Origin: Dehalococcoidia bacterium
Lineage (GTDB): Bacteria > Chloroflexota > Dehalococcoidia > Dehalococcoidales > RBG-16-60-22
Assembly (NCBI GenBank): GCA_011192005.1
Contig: DUFB01000084.1
Span: 1-48,475 of the forward strand
Reading direction: 5' to 3'
DNA length: 48,475 nucleotides
The notes under the pieces are model-generated. The model was not told where the DNA came from. It did no database searches and saw only the letters and a program-made list of their open reading frames with translations. How positions within the stretch are numbered: the first letter of the stretch is position 1; each line of letters opens with the position of its first letter. The translations under genes and the position numbers were made by a program. This document shows, piece after piece, positions 2,142 through 10,015 of this stretch.

Positions 2142-2188
2142 AATGGTGAGCCGCGGAGGACTCGAACCTCCAACCGGTTGATAAAGAG
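2142..2188 (-). repeat. Partial tRNA-Lys copy (3' half), candidate att-like direct repeat
   Basis: aatggtgagccgcggaggactcgaacctccaaccggttgataaagag matches 9938-9984 with 2 mismatches in 47; homology stops in the anticodon region and no D arm or 5' acceptor strand follows. Confidence 0.85.
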
Positions 2189-2869
2189 GAGATCTTCCCA
2201 GATAAACATAAAAAAATAAACACATTTTTACGCCTGAAATTTTATTTTAAATGATAGAACAAAAATCAGAATCACACTATTACATCTATTTACTATTAGG
2301 TAGTATACCCAGAACACTGTTTTTTATCTACGCTCCCAAACTCTTCCCTCTATTAGATCTATAGAATAACCCTTTAAAAAGAGTGAGTTGCAGGTAAGCC
2401 ATGTTGTCTCTAGCTAAGCAGTTTTTATATCCGTCAGGGTATGATAGGCTACACATACTACCGTTTTATTGGGTTATAGTACCAAAGACGGCGTTAGACC
2501 CGGAGCAGTTATCTGTGATATCATATTATAGGTCTATACGGGAAGGAGTGAGAAGCAAACAGGAGGGAGATAGAAGCGTGATCTGAAGTTAATATATAGG
2601 CATTTTGTCTGGGGGCTAGCATTCTATCCGTCGATGAATTGTTCCTCACCCTGTTAATTCTAGAGGCCAATAGATTAGGCAGTCCGTCAGCAGCGAGCTG
2701 TTTATAACTTTCAGATTGTTATCTCTGTTTTCCAAATATACCCCACTCACCCCATATTATATTAACCCCCTCTCAGTTTTTCTATAGCCTTCATATCTGA
2801 TTTTCCTTTGTTATAGTAAAGTCAGGAAAATAATATGCCTATTGTCTGTTCTATTGTTCACGCCGGACA

Positions 2870-3538
2870 ATGAGCGATATTCTTACATACCAGATTGAAA
2901 AACAGGAAGTCTTACACCGCATTGGTTACAGAGATGCGGAAAATATATCGATCCATATCGATACGCTGGTGGATGATTACCTCGATAATTATCACGATTT
3001 CATCATGCCGTCGTTCTCACGCATATATCAGGATATCGGAGAAGTTACCACCGATAAAGTACGTATTGACAGTGTTACTTTTCAAAGCAGTGTTCTCACC
3101 CGAATGCTCCAACGCTGCCAGCGTATTGCTGTGTTCGTTCTGACCATCGGTGATTACCTTGAAGAACTAGTAGCTTATCTTGCTACTCAAGAAATGGTAC
3201 TTCAGGCTACCGTCCTTGATGCCGTCGGTTCCGGCGCCGTGGAAAAATTCGCCAAGGATATCGAGGCAGAGATAAGGCGAGAAGCGGCAGAGGAAGGTCG
3301 GGTCGTCAGCCGCCGTTTCAGTCCCGGCTATTGCGATTGGGATATTACTCAGCAGAAGATACTATTTCATCTTCTTGATGGTAATACCGCCGGCGTTACT
3401 CTGACGGAAAATATGTTGATGACACCGCGTAAATCCGTATCTGGTATCGTCGGTATCGGATTACCGGGAAGAGATATTGAAGAATACAATCCTTGCCTGA
3501 CATGCCGGAAAAAAGACTGCCCGGGTCGGAGGAGATGA
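2870..3538 (+). CDS. Stand-alone vitamin B12-dependent methionine synthase activation-domain-like protein (corrinoid reactivation candidate)
   Basis: RRFSPGYCDWDITQQKILFHLLDG...LMTPRKSVSGIVGIGLPG resembles the MetH activation domain; sits directly upstream of the methyltransferases. Confidence 0.8.
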   Translation: MSDILTYQIEKQEVLHRIGYRDAENISIHIDTLVDDYLDNYHDFIMPSFSRIYQDIGEVTTDKVRIDSVTFQSSVLTRMLQRCQRIAVFVLTIGDYLEELVAYLATQEMVLQATVLDAVGSGAVEKFAKDIEAEIRREAAEEGRVVSRRFSPGYCDWDITQQKILFHLLDGNTAGVTLTENMLMTPRKSVSGIVGIGLPGRDIEEYNPCLTCRKKDCPGRRR

Positions 3539-3548
3539 TACTTGTAGG

Positions 3549-4988
3549 ATGATTCGAAAAGGGCTGGTCGGAGGCAGCTATCAACCTCTAACCTCCGGGG
3601 AAATCGACCGTATAAACGAGACGGTACTGCGTATCATTGAGGAAATCGGCTGTGAAGTCAATTCCGAAGCGGCACTGGAAGCTCTGGAAGATGCCGGCGC
3701 CAGAATAGACAGAAAGAAGCGGCATGTACAGTTCTCCCGGGAGAAAGCCCTTGAACTGATAGCTAAAGCACCCTCCGAGATTACCCTTTACGGACGTGAT
3801 AAAAAGCATGATATCTACCTGGCTGGCACCCGGGTTTACACGGGCACCGGAGGGACCGCTCTTAACATCTACGAACCTTCGACCGGAGAGAGACGCCCCG
3901 CCAACCTCGACGACCTTAAAAACATCATCGGACTGGTGGATAAACTAGACAACATTCACCTTTTACTCTTACCCACCTACCCCAATGAGTTGTCGACAAA
4001 GCGAGTGGACGTTAACCGCTTCTTTGCCGGGCTGGACAATACCACCAAGCATATTATGGGTGGCGTTTACACGCCAAACGGACTGAAGCAGGTCATCAAG
4101 ATGGCAGAAATTGTAGCCGGTTCTCCGGAGAATTTGAGAGCGCGCCCCCTGATATCCATCATTACCTGCGTTATCAGCCCCTTCGTTATCGATGCCTATT
4201 ACGGCGACCTTATCGTGGCTACCGCTAAAAGCGGTATCCCGGTGGTCTGTCCTGCCGAACCTTTATGCGGGGCGACCTCGCCGGTAACCCTCGCCGCCAC
4301 CGTAGCCGTGCAGACGGTCGATTCTCTGATGGGGATTATTCTGACCCAGGCTGTAAATCCGGGCACTCCGGCTATCTTCGGCTCGGTTGCCACCAGCACC
4401 GACCTGAGCGACTATAAATACATCGCCGGCTCGGTGGAAATGGGCTTGCTCAATGCCGCCGGTGCCCAGATGGCGCAGTTCTATAGATTACCCTACTACG
4501 CCACGGGCGGCATGACCGATTCCAAGACGCTCGATGCCCAGGCTGGCTACGAATCGGCGATAACCAACCTTCTCTGTGCCCTGTCCGGCGCCAATTTCAT
4601 CCACGACGCCGCGGGACTGATGGAGTTCGCACTGACAGTGTGCTACGAGAAATACGTTATTGATAACGATATCCTGGGGATGGTCATGCGGGCGGTTGAG
4701 GGTATCCGTGTGAATGATGATACGCTTGCTTTTGACCTCATCAAGGAAATAGGGCCGGGTGGCAACTTTGTCACTGCCAAGCACACGCGGCGTCACATGC
4801 GTAAAGAGCATTACCAGCCCACGCTGAGCGACCGTAATTACCGCGATAAATGGGAGAGCACCGGGCGAAAGGATACCTGGCAAAAAGCCTCGGAGACAGT
4901 ACGGAGAATTCTGAAAAACCATAATGTAAGACTGCCAGAAGAAGTCAGGAACAGAGTTCTCAGGGAGATCAAGGGCATCATAGCCTGA
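3549..4988 (+). CDS. MttB-superfamily (trimethylamine methyltransferase family) corrinoid methyltransferase, paralogue 1
   Basis: 479 aa uninterrupted; TGTGGTALNIYEPSTGERRPANLDDLKNIIGLVDKLDNI, NTTKHIMGG, VNPGTPAIFGSV. Next to corrinoid protein and second paralogue. Confidence 0.85.
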   Translation: MIRKGLVGGSYQPLTSGEIDRINETVLRIIEEIGCEVNSEAALEALEDAGARIDRKKRHVQFSREKALELIAKAPSEITLYGRDKKHDIYLAGTRVYTGTGGTALNIYEPSTGERRPANLDDLKNIIGLVDKLDNIHLLLLPTYPNELSTKRVDVNRFFAGLDNTTKHIMGGVYTPNGLKQVIKMAEIVAGSPENLRARPLISIITCVISPFVIDAYYGDLIVATAKSGIPVVCPAEPLCGATSPVTLAATVAVQTVDSLMGIILTQAVNPGTPAIFGSVATSTDLSDYKYIAGSVEMGLLNAAGAQMAQFYRLPYYATGGMTDSKTLDAQAGYESAITNLLCALSGANFIHDAAGLMEFALTVCYEKYVIDNDILGMVMRAVEGIRVNDDTLAFDLIKEIGPGGNFVTAKHTRRHMRKEHYQPTLSDRNYRDKWESTGRKDTWQKASETVRRILKNHNVRLPEEVRNRVLREIKGIIA

Positions 4989-5007
4989 GGCAGCAAGGAG
5001 GGGTAAA

Positions 5008-6555
5008 ATGCCCAGAGAAGGAATATTGATAAAAAAGCCAATAGAACGTCTTACCGGTGAGCAGGTGCAGCAGATTCACGATGCGTCTATAACGATATTA
5101 CGAGATCCCGGCCTGCTGTGTTTCAACCGCCGGGCGGCCGAGGTCTTCCGGAGTCATGGCGCGGAAGTTGGTGATATATCAGGGTCCAGTACCCCGAGCT
5201 GGACGGTTAAAATCCCGGGAAAGCTTGTTACAGATGCTCTCGATAAAGCCCCCTCGACGATAACGCTGGGAGCAAGGAACCCGGATAACGTCCTGGTTAT
5301 AAAGGGGGATGAGCCCCGCGTGTACTACATCACCGGCTCGGAGACAAACACCTGGCTGGATGTGGATTTCCCTGCTTACGTCAGTAAAACAGATTCGTCC
5401 AGAGAAAAGCGAATCCCCGAATTCAAGCCGCGACGTGGCACGGTGGCTGACCTGTGCGCCTCGGCGCACGTCTGCGAGCATTTGGAAACCGTTGACGGAT
5501 ATATCCGGACGGTTAATATCCAGGATAAAGAAATTAACGAAACGAACAAGGACGTGAATAAATTTTTCGCCTGCCTGAACAACACCACCAAGCATGTACA
5601 GTCCGGCCTGACCAAACTGGCACAGCTCGATAACGTGGTGAAAATGGCGGAGATAATAGCAGGCGGAAAAGATAAGCTGCAAGAAAATCCGCTTGTTTCC
5701 TTCATTACCTGCCTGGTGAAAAGCCCGCTTCAGTTCGTTGATAATACCACCGAGACCTTTATCGAGGTCTGCCAGCGGGGTCTGCCCGTCGTCGTTTCCT
5801 CTTCACCGCAGGCGGGAACATCAGCCCCCATCAAGGAAGCGGGTATCATGGCGCAGATAAACGCCGAGGTTCTGGCCGGCATCACCCTGGGTCAGCTGGT
5901 CAACCCGGGCACCCCGGTGCTTTACGGTAGCGTGCCGGTGCGGGCGCGCATGGATACCCTCGGTGATTCCTACGGCTCTATCGAGACCACGCAGTACAAT
6001 ATCGACTGCGTGCAGATGGCACGCTTCTATAATCTTCCTAACTACTCGACTTCAGGTGTATGCGATACCAAGATTCCCGGTCAGCAATCGACGGTGGAGC
6101 GGTTGTTTTCCGATATCTTGGTAACGCTGAGCGGTCCGCAGTTCCTTCACTGCGCCTTCGGGCTGCTGGACTGCAACGCCGTATTTTGCCTGCTCCAGGC
6201 CGTCCTCGATGATGCACATTTCAAGATGATTAAAAACTTCCTGAGAGAACCCCGCATTAACGAAACTGAGCTGGCCGATATCAGGAAGCAGATAACCGAC
6301 GTCGTGGCTACACCGCAGAAGATGTTCATTAACTATATCCGCCCGGTGATGCGGAGCGGTGAAATATCACTCCCTTATCCCTTTGAGGGAGAAGGCGACG
6401 ATGATGATGTGTTTTATCTAGCTAACGAGCGAATGAAAGAGCTACTGGCGAAGCCTGTAGAACACATTGACGAAGCGACCACCCAGAGAATATTCAACGA
6501 AATACCCGGTCTGCTGCCCGGGCTCAATTTCTATGAAAGGGAGAACCAATCATGA
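5008..6555 (+). CDS. MttB-superfamily corrinoid methyltransferase, paralogue 2
   Basis: 515 aa uninterrupted; shares NTTKHVQSG, VVKMAEIIAGG, LVNPGTPVLYGSV with paralogue 1. Confidence 0.85.
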   Translation: MPREGILIKKPIERLTGEQVQQIHDASITILRDPGLLCFNRRAAEVFRSHGAEVGDISGSSTPSWTVKIPGKLVTDALDKAPSTITLGARNPDNVLVIKGDEPRVYYITGSETNTWLDVDFPAYVSKTDSSREKRIPEFKPRRGTVADLCASAHVCEHLETVDGYIRTVNIQDKEINETNKDVNKFFACLNNTTKHVQSGLTKLAQLDNVVKMAEIIAGGKDKLQENPLVSFITCLVKSPLQFVDNTTETFIEVCQRGLPVVVSSSPQAGTSAPIKEAGIMAQINAEVLAGITLGQLVNPGTPVLYGSVPVRARMDTLGDSYGSIETTQYNIDCVQMARFYNLPNYSTSGVCDTKIPGQQSTVERLFSDILVTLSGPQFLHCAFGLLDCNAVFCLLQAVLDDAHFKMIKNFLREPRINETELADIRKQITDVVATPQKMFINYIRPVMRSGEISLPYPFEGEGDDDDVFYLANERMKELLAKPVEHIDEATTQRIFNEIPGLLPGLNFYERENQS

Positions 6556-7247
6556 GTATGGCAAATCTGCTGGAAAAACTGAAAGAGAACGTAATACAGG
6601 GACGTAAAACCAGCGAGGACATCGGCATCGATGAATCGCTGACGGGAACGCCGGGCGTTGTCGAGATGGTGGAGGAGGCACTGGAGGCGGATATCCCGGC
6701 CGAGGAACTGATTACAAGCTCGCTGACGGCCGGCATGGAAGTGGTCGGTGAAAAATTCTCCAGTAAGGAATATTACATCCCGGATATGCTGGCGTCGGCG
6801 GATGCCGTCGGCGCGGCCATGGAAATCCTCAAGCCACATCTTGAAAAAGCTAACGTCCCGACACGCGGGAAAATCGTCCTGGCTACCGTCAAGGGCGATA
6901 TTCACGATATCGGCAAGAACATCGTCGCCATCCTGCTTAAGGGTGCCGGCTACGAGGTCGTCGACCTTGGTATCGATGTGCCGGAGGATAAAATCATCGA
7001 GACGGTGCGCAGCGAAAAGCCGGACTATCTCGGTCTCTCCGCCCTGCTCACCACCACCATGACAGAGATGCCGTTGGTGATAAAGGCTCTCGAGGAGAAC
7101 AGTCTGAGGGATAGTGTCAAGATACTTATCGGCGGGGCTGCCGTTTCTGAGGAATACGCTATGGAAATCGGCGCCGATGCCTTCTGTGCTGACGGCTTCC
7201 AGGCTATCAAGGTGCTGGAAGAAATGGAAAAAGCAAACGGTAAGTAA
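6552..7247 (+). CDS. Methyltransferase cognate corrinoid (B12-binding) protein, MtbC/MttC-like
   Basis: GDIHDIGKNIVAILLKGAGYEVVDLGIDVP (DxHxxG cobalamin-binding motif); N-terminal helical cap. Confidence 0.92.
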   Translation: MSMANLLEKLKENVIQGRKTSEDIGIDESLTGTPGVVEMVEEALEADIPAEELITSSLTAGMEVVGEKFSSKEYYIPDMLASADAVGAAMEILKPHLEKANVPTRGKIVLATVKGDIHDIGKNIVAILLKGAGYEVVDLGIDVPEDKIIETVRSEKPDYLGLSALLTTTMTEMPLVIKALEENSLRDSVKILIGGAAVSEEYAMEIGADAFCADGFQAIKVLEEMEKANGK

Positions 7248-7280
7248 AAAGAAACGAATATGTAATTTGGAGATTGTTTT

Positions 7281-8894
7281 ATGTGCGGAATAGCTGGATG
7301 TTTTGGAAAAAAAGATTCGGAAACAATTAACCGAATGCTCGATGCATTGCCCCACCGCGGTCCCGATGACCGGGGTATACATACCTTTAACAACACCGTA
7401 TTCGGCCATACCAGGTTGTCCATCGTGGATGTGATGAAGGGGCACCAGCCCATATTGGCCGAAGACGGGCGGATCGGCATAATCTGCAACGGGGAAATAT
7501 ATAATTTTAGAGCACTCAGAGATAAACTTGTTGAAAAATATGCATTTACTACGGAGTCGGATACCGAGGTTATCCTGCACCTCTACCGCGAAAAAGGTCC
7601 TGACTGCGTCAGGGAGCTGGACGGTATGTTCTCCTTCGCTATTTTCAGCGGGGACGACTATATGCTGGCGCGCGACCCCATCGGCATCAAGCCGCTTTAC
7701 TACGGATATGTCGATGGTAATCTCTACTTTACTTCCGAACTGGGCGCCATGACCCTGGCCGGCGTCGATGAAGTACATGAGTTTCCGGCCGGTTACTACT
7801 ACACCCCGTCGGAAGGTTTTGTCCAGTACTACCAGATACCACCGATTGAAGACGATATACTTACCGACATCGAGGAAGCCAAGCAGCTAATTAGGGATAC
7901 CTTCATCACCTCGGTGAAAAAGCGCCTGCTGGCGGATAAAGAAATACATGTTGGCTCGTTTTGTAGCGGCGGCATCGATTCCAGCCTGGTGGCTGCCATC
8001 GCCGCCGAGGAAATCCCCCACCTGCACACTTTCGTCGTCGGGATGAAAGACGTTAAAGGCGAGGAAAGCGACGACCTTAAAGCCTCCCGAATCGCCGCCG
8101 AACATATCGGTTCCACCCACCACGAGCTTATCTTTACCGAAGATGAATACTACGAGGCACTTCCGATTGTCATCAAGAAGCTGGAGAGCTATGACCCCTC
8201 GCTGGTACGCTGCGCCGTTCCCTGCTACTTCACCTGCAAGCTGGCGGCGGAGTACGTGACCGTAGTGCTGACTGGTGAGGGTGCTGATGAGCTGTTTACC
8301 GGTTACCATTACATGAAACACTATCCGACGGATGTGCTTAACAGGGAAGCCCACCGCTGCATCGGCAACCTGCACAACATCAACCTCCAGCGTGCCGACC
8401 GCATGGGTATGCTGTTTTCCCTGGAACTGCGGGTGCCGTTCCTTGACACAGCAATGATTGACCTGGCGATGAAAGTCCCTCCCGAACTCAAGATAAAGGA
8501 ATCGGAAAAAGTCGGCGACAAGATAGAGAAGTGGATTCTCCGCCAGGCTTTCCAGGATACCGGTTATCTCCCCGATGATATTCTCTGGCGATACAAAGTG
8601 CAGTATACCCAGGGAGCCGGCTGCGAAGACCTGGGTGAAAAACTCGCCAACAGTGAAATAACCGAAGATGAATACGAGCGGCTTAAGGCTGAAAATCCTC
8701 AAGCTACTCTCAACAGCAAGGAAGCCGCTTACTATTTTAAAATATTCCGCCAGTACCACCCGCAGGACTCGGTTCTCGGGTCTATCGGCATCTGGACCGG
8801 ATTCGATTTCACCGAGGAGAGGGAAAAAGTGCGAGGTACCATGGACGGCGATTTGAAACATGTCCGCGAGGAAACATCGACCGGGGCCAAGTAA
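7281..8894 (+). CDS. asnB: Glutamine-hydrolysing asparagine synthetase family protein
   Basis: MCGIAGCFG (N-terminal Cys nucleophile), PHRGPDDRG, GHTRLSIVD, SGGIDSSLVAA PP-loop, LTGEGADELFTGY. Confidence 0.92.
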   Translation: MCGIAGCFGKKDSETINRMLDALPHRGPDDRGIHTFNNTVFGHTRLSIVDVMKGHQPILAEDGRIGIICNGEIYNFRALRDKLVEKYAFTTESDTEVILHLYREKGPDCVRELDGMFSFAIFSGDDYMLARDPIGIKPLYYGYVDGNLYFTSELGAMTLAGVDEVHEFPAGYYYTPSEGFVQYYQIPPIEDDILTDIEEAKQLIRDTFITSVKKRLLADKEIHVGSFCSGGIDSSLVAAIAAEEIPHLHTFVVGMKDVKGEESDDLKASRIAAEHIGSTHHELIFTEDEYYEALPIVIKKLESYDPSLVRCAVPCYFTCKLAAEYVTVVLTGEGADELFTGYHYMKHYPTDVLNREAHRCIGNLHNINLQRADRMGMLFSLELRVPFLDTAMIDLAMKVPPELKIKESEKVGDKIEKWILRQAFQDTGYLPDDILWRYKVQYTQGAGCEDLGEKLANSEITEDEYERLKAENPQATLNSKEAAYYFKIFRQYHPQDSVLGSIGIWTGFDFTEEREKVRGTMDGDLKHVREETSTGAK

Positions 8895-8896
8895 CA

Positions 8897-9745
8897 ATGA
8901 AGCTTACTATCCTTGGTTCGGGTGGCTGCATGGTGATTCCAAAACCGCTATGCGGCTGCCGGGTCTGCCGGGAAGCACGCCGGAAGGGTATCCCATACTC
9001 CCGAGGCGGTCCGGCTGCTTTTTTACATGATGCCAACTTGTTAATAGATTCGCCGGCTGAAATCACCACTCAGCTAAACCGCGAAAACATTCGACATATC
9101 CGGTACCTGATGTTGACACACCTCGATCCCGACCACGTCGAGGGACTGCGGGTTGTGGAACAAATAGTCCTGGACTTCCGAACCTGGTGTTCCTATCCTG
9201 AAAAACGAATAACGCTTCTGCTCCCCGAGCAACTCGAAACGCCTCTACACGAAATCTCCACCCAGTACGGGCCGGCTATAGTACATTATACAGAAAGCGG
9301 CTTTATCGAATTGGTAGCATTTAAGGAACGGGCATGTGCTGGCGATGTCAATATCACTGCCATACCCGTAGAACGCAATCGAAAGAAAGCCTTCATCTAT
9401 GTCTATGAAAAAGACGGGAAAAAGCTAGTCTACGCACCGTGCGATATCAAACCTTTCCCGGAAGAACGTCGTGAGGTGAAAGATGCAGACGTACTTGTTA
9501 TTCAGCCGGGTATTTTCGAAACCGATCTGCGGCACGGCTTCTGTTATCCAGCGGACCATATTTCCCGGAGAACACTTTATACCTTTGAGGAAACGTTGGC
9601 GCTTGCGTCTCGTATTCGTGCGAAACAGACGGTATTTGTACATCTCGAGGAGTACTGGCACCGAAGTTATGATAACTACTTGCAACTCGAACAAGAGCAC
9701 GATGATATTCATTTTGCGTATGATGGGATGAAAGTGTGTCTGTAA
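8897..9745 (+). CDS. Metallo-beta-lactamase-fold hydrolase, PhnP-like
   Basis: MKLTILGSGGCMVIPKPLCGCRVCREARRKG, LLIDSPAEI, LTHLDPDHVEGL. Confidence 0.85.
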   Translation: MKLTILGSGGCMVIPKPLCGCRVCREARRKGIPYSRGGPAAFLHDANLLIDSPAEITTQLNRENIRHIRYLMLTHLDPDHVEGLRVVEQIVLDFRTWCSYPEKRITLLLPEQLETPLHEISTQYGPAIVHYTESGFIELVAFKERACAGDVNITAIPVERNRKKAFIYVYEKDGKKLVYAPCDIKPFPEERREVKDADVLVIQPGIFETDLRHGFCYPADHISRRTLYTFEETLALASRIRAKQTVFVHLEEYWHRSYDNYLQLEQEHDDIHFAYDGMKVCL

Positions 9746-9819
9746 ACAGGAGTATTGGTGTAGTTCAACAAGTTAATTTTAAAAGTAGGCAGAGTTATCA
9801 TACGTGGAAGAGGGTAATA

Positions 9820-9873
9820 GTTAAGCAGTTTGTTAAGCAAAATTGGGGCTAAAATCGCATATTTTGTTAAGCA
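9820..9873. repeat. Three GTTAAGCA repeats inside an imperfect inverted repeat
   Basis: GTTAAGCA at 9820-9827, 9832-9839 and 9866-9873; outer arms gcagtttg/caaactgc, inner arms caaaat/attttg. Confidence 0.7.
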
Positions 9874-9939
9874 AACTGCCGAGTATACTGACTAAACTGA
9901 AAGGAGTACTGAAAAAATGGGTCTAATTAGCCTTAAAAA

Positions 9940-10015
9940 TGGTGAGCCGCGGAGGACTCGAACCTCCAACCGGCTGATTAAGAGTCAGCTGCTCTGCCAG
10001 TTGAGCTAGCGGCCC
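9940..10015 (-). tRNA. tRNA-Lys(CTT), CCA encoded
   Basis: Reverse strand folds as a cloverleaf: GGGCCGC acceptor, GCTC/GAGC D stem, GCTGA-CTCTTAA-TCAGC anticodon arm, GGAGG-TTCGAGT-CCTCC T arm, GCGGCTC-A-CCA end. Confidence 0.95.

Follow-up and report, generated by a model that had tools for sequence, protein, structure and literature searches.

We analysed the whole of contig DUFB01000084.1 (C92; 48,475 nucleotides, hereafter the window) of a draft Dehalococcoidales genome (G000; 108 contigs, 79.6% complete), in which a corrinoid methyltransferase operon lies between a tRNA-Lys(CTT) gene and a direct repeat of the 3' half of this gene. The segment at 2144-9939 is probably a fixed, integrase-less relic of an element that had been inserted at tRNA-Lys(CTT) by a tyrosine recombinase. 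Six observations carry this reading: the repeat, its uniqueness in the genome, a breakpoint common to the order, recombinases at the same tRNA in other genomes, a variable 3' side of the gene in relatives and a copy of the operon at tRNA-Lys in another family (genome G050).

The tRNA-Lys repeat and the segment that it bounds

The only tRNA gene of the window, tRNA-Lys(CTT) at 9940-10015 on the minus strand, was found by ARAGORN and Rfam, which agree (Rfam tRNA model, 65.3 bits). The alignment showed that positions 9938-9984 recur at 2142-2188 in direct orientation with 45 matches out of 47, which confirms the duplication described in an earlier note on this DNA. Within the repeat, 2144-2188 corresponds to tRNA positions 32-76, i.e. 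the 3' half of the tRNA from the anticodon loop to the CCA, with 43 of 45 bases identical. The fragment is not a dispersed repeat in its own genome, where a genome-wide search returned only two strong copies, the tRNA and 2142-2188 (E-values of 3.5e-16 for the pair and 6.1e-16 for the fragment). Since the next-best 47-base match inside the window reached just 25/47, a chance origin of the repeat is excluded.

The insertion could be placed on the 3' side of the tRNA, as previously proposed, because in relatives the 5' side is syntenic and the 3' side variable. On the 5' side, synteny of the two-component genes extends to G001, G005, G015, G018 and G021. On the 3' side, two oxidoreductase genes are common to G005 and G018 and otherwise nothing is common among the compared loci; even in these two genomes the gene directly beside tRNA-Lys differs despite the common oxidoreductases. 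The window thus combines an intact tRNA gene, with an insertion on its 3' side, and a far boundary formed by a second, directly oriented copy of the tRNA 3' end, the arrangement of a tRNA island.

Between the two attachment (att) copies, the only genes are six metabolic ones on the plus strand. The features of the segment are the following.

2144-2188, minus strand: displaced tRNA-Lys 3' half, the far att copy (43/45; 2142-2188 with the flanking AA, 45/47)
2189-2474, no strand: left inner end of the island, for which sequence comparison gave no convincing relative
2475-2869, plus strand: operon leader, 71% to the upstream regions in G015 and G021 and at the same distance upstream in family relatives
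2870-3538, plus strand: B12-dependent activation protein with a Met_synt_B12 domain (PF02965, E-value 6.6e-12)
3549-4988, plus strand: MttB1, MttB-superfamily methyltransferase without pyrrolysine (non-Pyl; PF06253, E-value 6.8e-106; nearest solved structure 2qne/9yce)
5008-6555, plus strand: MttB2, MttB-superfamily methyltransferase (PF06253, E-value 1e-55)
6552-7247, plus strand: MttC/MtgC-like corrinoid protein (B12-binding, E-value 5.6e-28; NF047996 and TIGR02370 below their cut-offs)
7281-8894, plus strand: AsnB-like glutamine-dependent synthetase (PRK09431, 603.7 bits, over cut-off)
8897-9745, plus strand: MBL-fold hydrolase (PF12706, E-value 2.3e-14)
9829-9841 and 9863-9875, no strand: two identical 13-base repeats TTTGTTAAGCAAA, 65-111 bases off the tRNA 3' end
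9940-10015, minus strand: intact tRNA-Lys(CTT) (ARAGORN, Rfam), with its 3' half at 9940-9984 as the tRNA-side att copy

The MttB1 and MttB2 frames have no in-frame TAG; with an MTTB domain free of a Pyl codon and a partner corrinoid protein, they have the features of non-Pyl members of the MttB superfamily. The alignment of MttB1 with the glycine betaine methyltransferase 2qne/9yce spans about 450 residues (285 bits) and includes GGMTDSKTLDAQAG against GGLNDSKTVDAQAG. Rfam also reported PYLIS_3, the mttB pyrrolysine insertion sequence, at 4512-4611 inside MttB1 (62.2 bits); as this gene has no in-frame TAG, the match probably reflects ordinary homology of mttB coding sequence. No recombinase, conjugation or phage gene was found among the genes between the att copies, in line with the purely metabolic content and lack of a visible integrase noted earlier. 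As the 2144-9939 segment encodes no site-specific recombinase of its own, we filed it as a relic and not as a complete element.

tRNA-Lys(CTT) as an integration site in Dehalococcoidales

We searched 156 genomes of the order for 3' fragments of tRNA-Lys(CTT). About 16 other fragments were found, and the fetched loci showed that all of them start at tRNA positions 26-35, in the anticodon stem-loop, and extend to near the tRNA 3' end. The tRNA and a fragment lie on one contig, in the same direction, in four other genomes (9.8 kb in G003, 9.9 kb in G143, 5.2 kb in G052 and 2.5 kb in G054), and a tyrosine recombinase is located between the two in G003, G143 and G052, which carry elements of 5-10 kb. 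Recombinase genes or remnants also adjoin tRNA-Lys in G030, G133, G015 and G050, the 3'-side remnant of G030, a member of another family, matching the G143 enzyme across 80 residues at 89% identity. The 9.8-kb element of G003 (L011:4328-14167; contig C12) is provirus-like, with a 404-amino-acid tyrosine recombinase, a phage-type repressor, a nuclease, a terminase-like ATPase, a match resembling a virion protein and mostly unknown genes of structural type. The shared breakpoint and the recombinases are what tRNA-Lys-specific recombinases would be expected to leave and support site-specific integration; the integration footprint that the earlier note had recognised in the tRNA 3' end is supported by the same breakpoint, with recombinases, in other genomes of the order.

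A second copy of the operon at this tRNA was found in Dehalococcoidales BS750m-G39 (L086; G050, contig C53), which belongs to another family. There the operon is found on the tRNA-Lys(CTT) 3' side, oriented as in the window; between operon and tRNA are a C-N hydrolase and the C-terminus of a recombinase (50% over 38 residues), the frame of which continues into tRNA-Lys. The probability of such closeness by chance in at least one of the 33 other carriers was roughly estimated at 0.04, a value computed after the fact. The G050 copy suggests, without proof, that the operon is cargo of tRNA-Lys elements. G063 was considered as another such case and rejected: its operon is about 14 kb from tRNA-Lys, with ordinary genes between them and no fragment.

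Other arrangements were observed at tRNA-Lys. Recombinases related to that of G143 are located on the 5' side of the gene in G007 (L162, contig C41) and G051 (L164, contig C103). In G069 (L163, contig C20, 555-630 and 3092-3133), the 5' half of tRNA-Lys (positions 1-42) is repeated 2.5 kb upstream, and some elements may use this half instead. The tRNA-Lys of G054 (L147, contig C1; 5609-5682 and 3109-3148) has an off-consensus 3' half, with a consensus half 2.5 kb away, as if integration had replaced the 3' half. In G105 (L148:8450-10660, contig C63), a tRNA-Lys fragment (positions 27-74, 100%) is flanked, within a single long frame, by a recombinase domain on each side; two elements may have been joined here at att.

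Origin of the operon and alternative explanations

In the scenario that we favour, a tyrosine recombinase would have joined the tRNA-Lys-like 3' half carried by the element to the chromosomal tRNA at the anticodon stem-loop. The element's own 3' half would have kept tRNA-Lys whole, and the original half would have been displaced to 2144-2188. The operon, a corrinoid demethylation operon native to the family and equipped with its own leader, would have arrived as cargo together with the att sites, through a recombinase of this class. That enzyme, with whatever other mobility genes the element had, would have been lost later, so that the island now looks fixed and would be immobile.

The operon is also present in G002, G005, G015, G016, G018, G021 and G024, with MttB proteins of 76-82% identity. 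In the MttB2 tree the window sequence groups within its own family and forms a well-supported fork with those of G018 and G005; the operon identities track those of core genes, and GC content and codon usage are host-like. For these reasons the cargo is not a distant import, and a foreign origin of the operon, which was considered, is unsupported by composition or tree. A fuller form occurs in other Dehalococcoidia and comprises the activation protein, MttB1, MttC1, MttB2, MttC2, AsnB1, AsnB2 and MBL. Compared with L075, L078, L097 and L108, the window operon is shortened, without MttC1 and AsnB1; it keeps the second AsnB (82-86% to other Dehalococcoidia) and MBL, the family relatives having the opposite AsnB. 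Records with a Deltaproteobacteria label contain homologues of about 69-77%, and a Phycisphaerae-labelled record contains one, which suggests that the operon crosses lineages, provided that those bins are clean. No copy of the operon was found on viral contigs. The leader accompanies the operon across the loci of relatives, and nearly the whole segment consists of operon and leader, because the DNA from about 2475 is the operon's own leader.

Several observations weigh against the integration of the operon as an element at tRNA-Lys. Seven family members carry it away from tRNA-Lys, at several different loci with no fragment nearby. Its host-like codon usage and GC content, with its place within the family tree, give no sign of recent import. 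A tblastn search with several tyrosine recombinases and their C-termini gave no credible match to an integrase remnant at either end of the segment. The G050 contig stops just upstream of MttB2, before a far boundary would be reached. Lastly, the empty tRNA-Lys site proposed earlier as a check was not obtained: relatives have tRNA-Lys without the window's island, none of them with its left flank, and no exact empty site adjoining that flank was found among them, because the left-flank glycosyltransferase (930-1940) has no close relative (family homologues of only 34-40%). Relatives with the operon and without the repeat would formally count as a refutation in the terms of the earlier note; yet the loci of the operon differ among genera, which therefore shows only that it is not tied to the tRNA-Lys site.

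The att copies might instead go back to an earlier provirus or island that has since lost its content, the operon having entered separately by homologous recombination or otherwise. This would agree with an operon that is native to the family and shifts locus among genera without tRNA repeats, and with the use of tRNA-Lys, in the same family, by the repressor-, integrase- and ATPase-bearing element of G003. We nevertheless consider it unlikely, as almost nothing besides the operon and its leader lies between the att copies and the operon also occurs at this tRNA, identically oriented, in a second family, represented by G050, with the rough chance estimate given above.

A living integrase-less element, excised and reinserted by a recombinase encoded elsewhere, appears improbable. 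Both att copies are nearly intact (43/45), and a genome search for a tyrosine recombinase, as the earlier note had advised, did return one phage-type piece, the only one of this genome (L025/L062, G000:C26:1-956), with 31% identity to the G143 tRNA-Lys enzyme; this gene is, however, interrupted by an in-frame stop and truncated where the contig ends, and the displaced att copy has two changes near the crossover. The two 13-base repeats close to the tRNA side, which lie in an imperfect inverted-repeat setting (9829-9875), are possible candidates for recombinase arm sites, but among the 156 genomes of the order they were found only in this one. Among the fixed, decayed or trans-mobilised states considered in the earlier note, the first two fit best, and trans-mobilisation has no positive support. 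We give as little credence to a related idea, in which tRNA-Lys would be a shared dock where the operon was repeatedly delivered, in the families of the window and of G050, by elements that shed their own recombinase and rely on those of resident proviruses, the operon thereby spreading as an integrase-less cassette.

It is very improbable that the repeat arose as an assembly artefact, represents a dispersed fragment of the tRNA or results from its duplication by chance or as part of a segment, for although the window belongs to a draft assembly and other drafts (e.g. G001, G015 and G030) contain fragments without a neighbouring tRNA, the common anticodon-loop start and 3' end of all fragments are unexpected from random duplication, tRNA/fragment pairs enclosing recombinases exist, and the window copies differ at two bases and are therefore no simple collapsed repeat.

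Apart from the relic island, which remains our preferred reading of the segment, the leader shows a pattern of its own. Downstream of a Shine-Dalgarno-like sequence, a start codon and a stop codon are separated by a single codon, giving a two-codon open reading frame that reads GTG ATC TGA in the window (2578-2586). By our own count, the pattern is kept in 19 of the 22 aligned loci, the exceptions being L091, L099 and L106; three different start codons (ATG, GTG, TTG) and as many different stop codons are used, and the middle codons are diverse. The leader is conserved across Dehalococcoidia, including L053, L056, L059, L096, L114, L116, L121 and L126. A structured RNA was considered and rejected, as RNAalifold gave no consensus structure and Rfam no match. 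For axe-txe, a two-codon minigene is reported to have a regulatory role (PMC8708949). The recurring minigene pattern, drawn from an alignment count, is a lead only, and the leader that bears it may merit more attention than the island.

Comparison with known islands and methyltransferase systems

Islands directed to tRNA genes and to ssrA are well known in Dehalococcoides (bvc, vcr and others), and those at tRNA genes have the 3' end of the gene directly repeated; strain 195 has a repeated island at tRNA-Lys, and the bvc island is located at tRNA-Arg with a 58-bp repeat (PMC2764846). The Dehalococcoides islands at ssrA use a serine recombinase (PMC3146451). The window island comes from the same order and is bounded in the same way, by an RNA gene on one side and a direct copy of that gene's 3' end on the other, with metabolic cargo; the Dehalococcoides islands carry dehalogenase genes and usually an integrase, whereas the window island has a demethylation operon and no recombinase. 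With its tRNA-Lys site and no recombinase gene, it is not a member of the ssrA group, defined by the ssrA site and a serine-recombinase module. The comparison extends tRNA-directed islands from the dehalogenase cargo of cultured Dehalococcoides to methyl-group metabolism in uncultured Dehalococcoidales. It also identifies tRNA-Lys(CTT) as a hotspot of integration throughout the order, where tyrosine recombinases occur on either side of the gene, and gives a defined spot for the search of mobile elements in bacteria that are hard to culture.

The elements of G003, G143 and G052 share with the window the same tRNA-Lys(CTT), breakpoint and side; unlike the window, they have tyrosine recombinases and other element genes, and none has the operon. 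The G050 copy has the same operon genes (MttB2 74%, MttC 69%), tRNA, side and orientation, and differs by its C-N hydrolase, its recombinase C-terminal remnant and its AsnB, which is the other paralogue. Cis-mobilizable elements (CIMEs) are bounded by att sites and lack an integrase. The window segment resembles them in its two att copies and absent integrase, and differs in that no related integrative element with these att sites is known in its own genome. MttB1 resembles MtgB-type non-Pyl enzymes (2qne, 9yce) in its alignment and in the adjoining corrinoid and activation proteins; the window differs in having two MttB paralogues with AsnB-like and MBL-fold genes in one operon. The window island is an island of a known kind, which differs in its cargo and in its absent recombinase.

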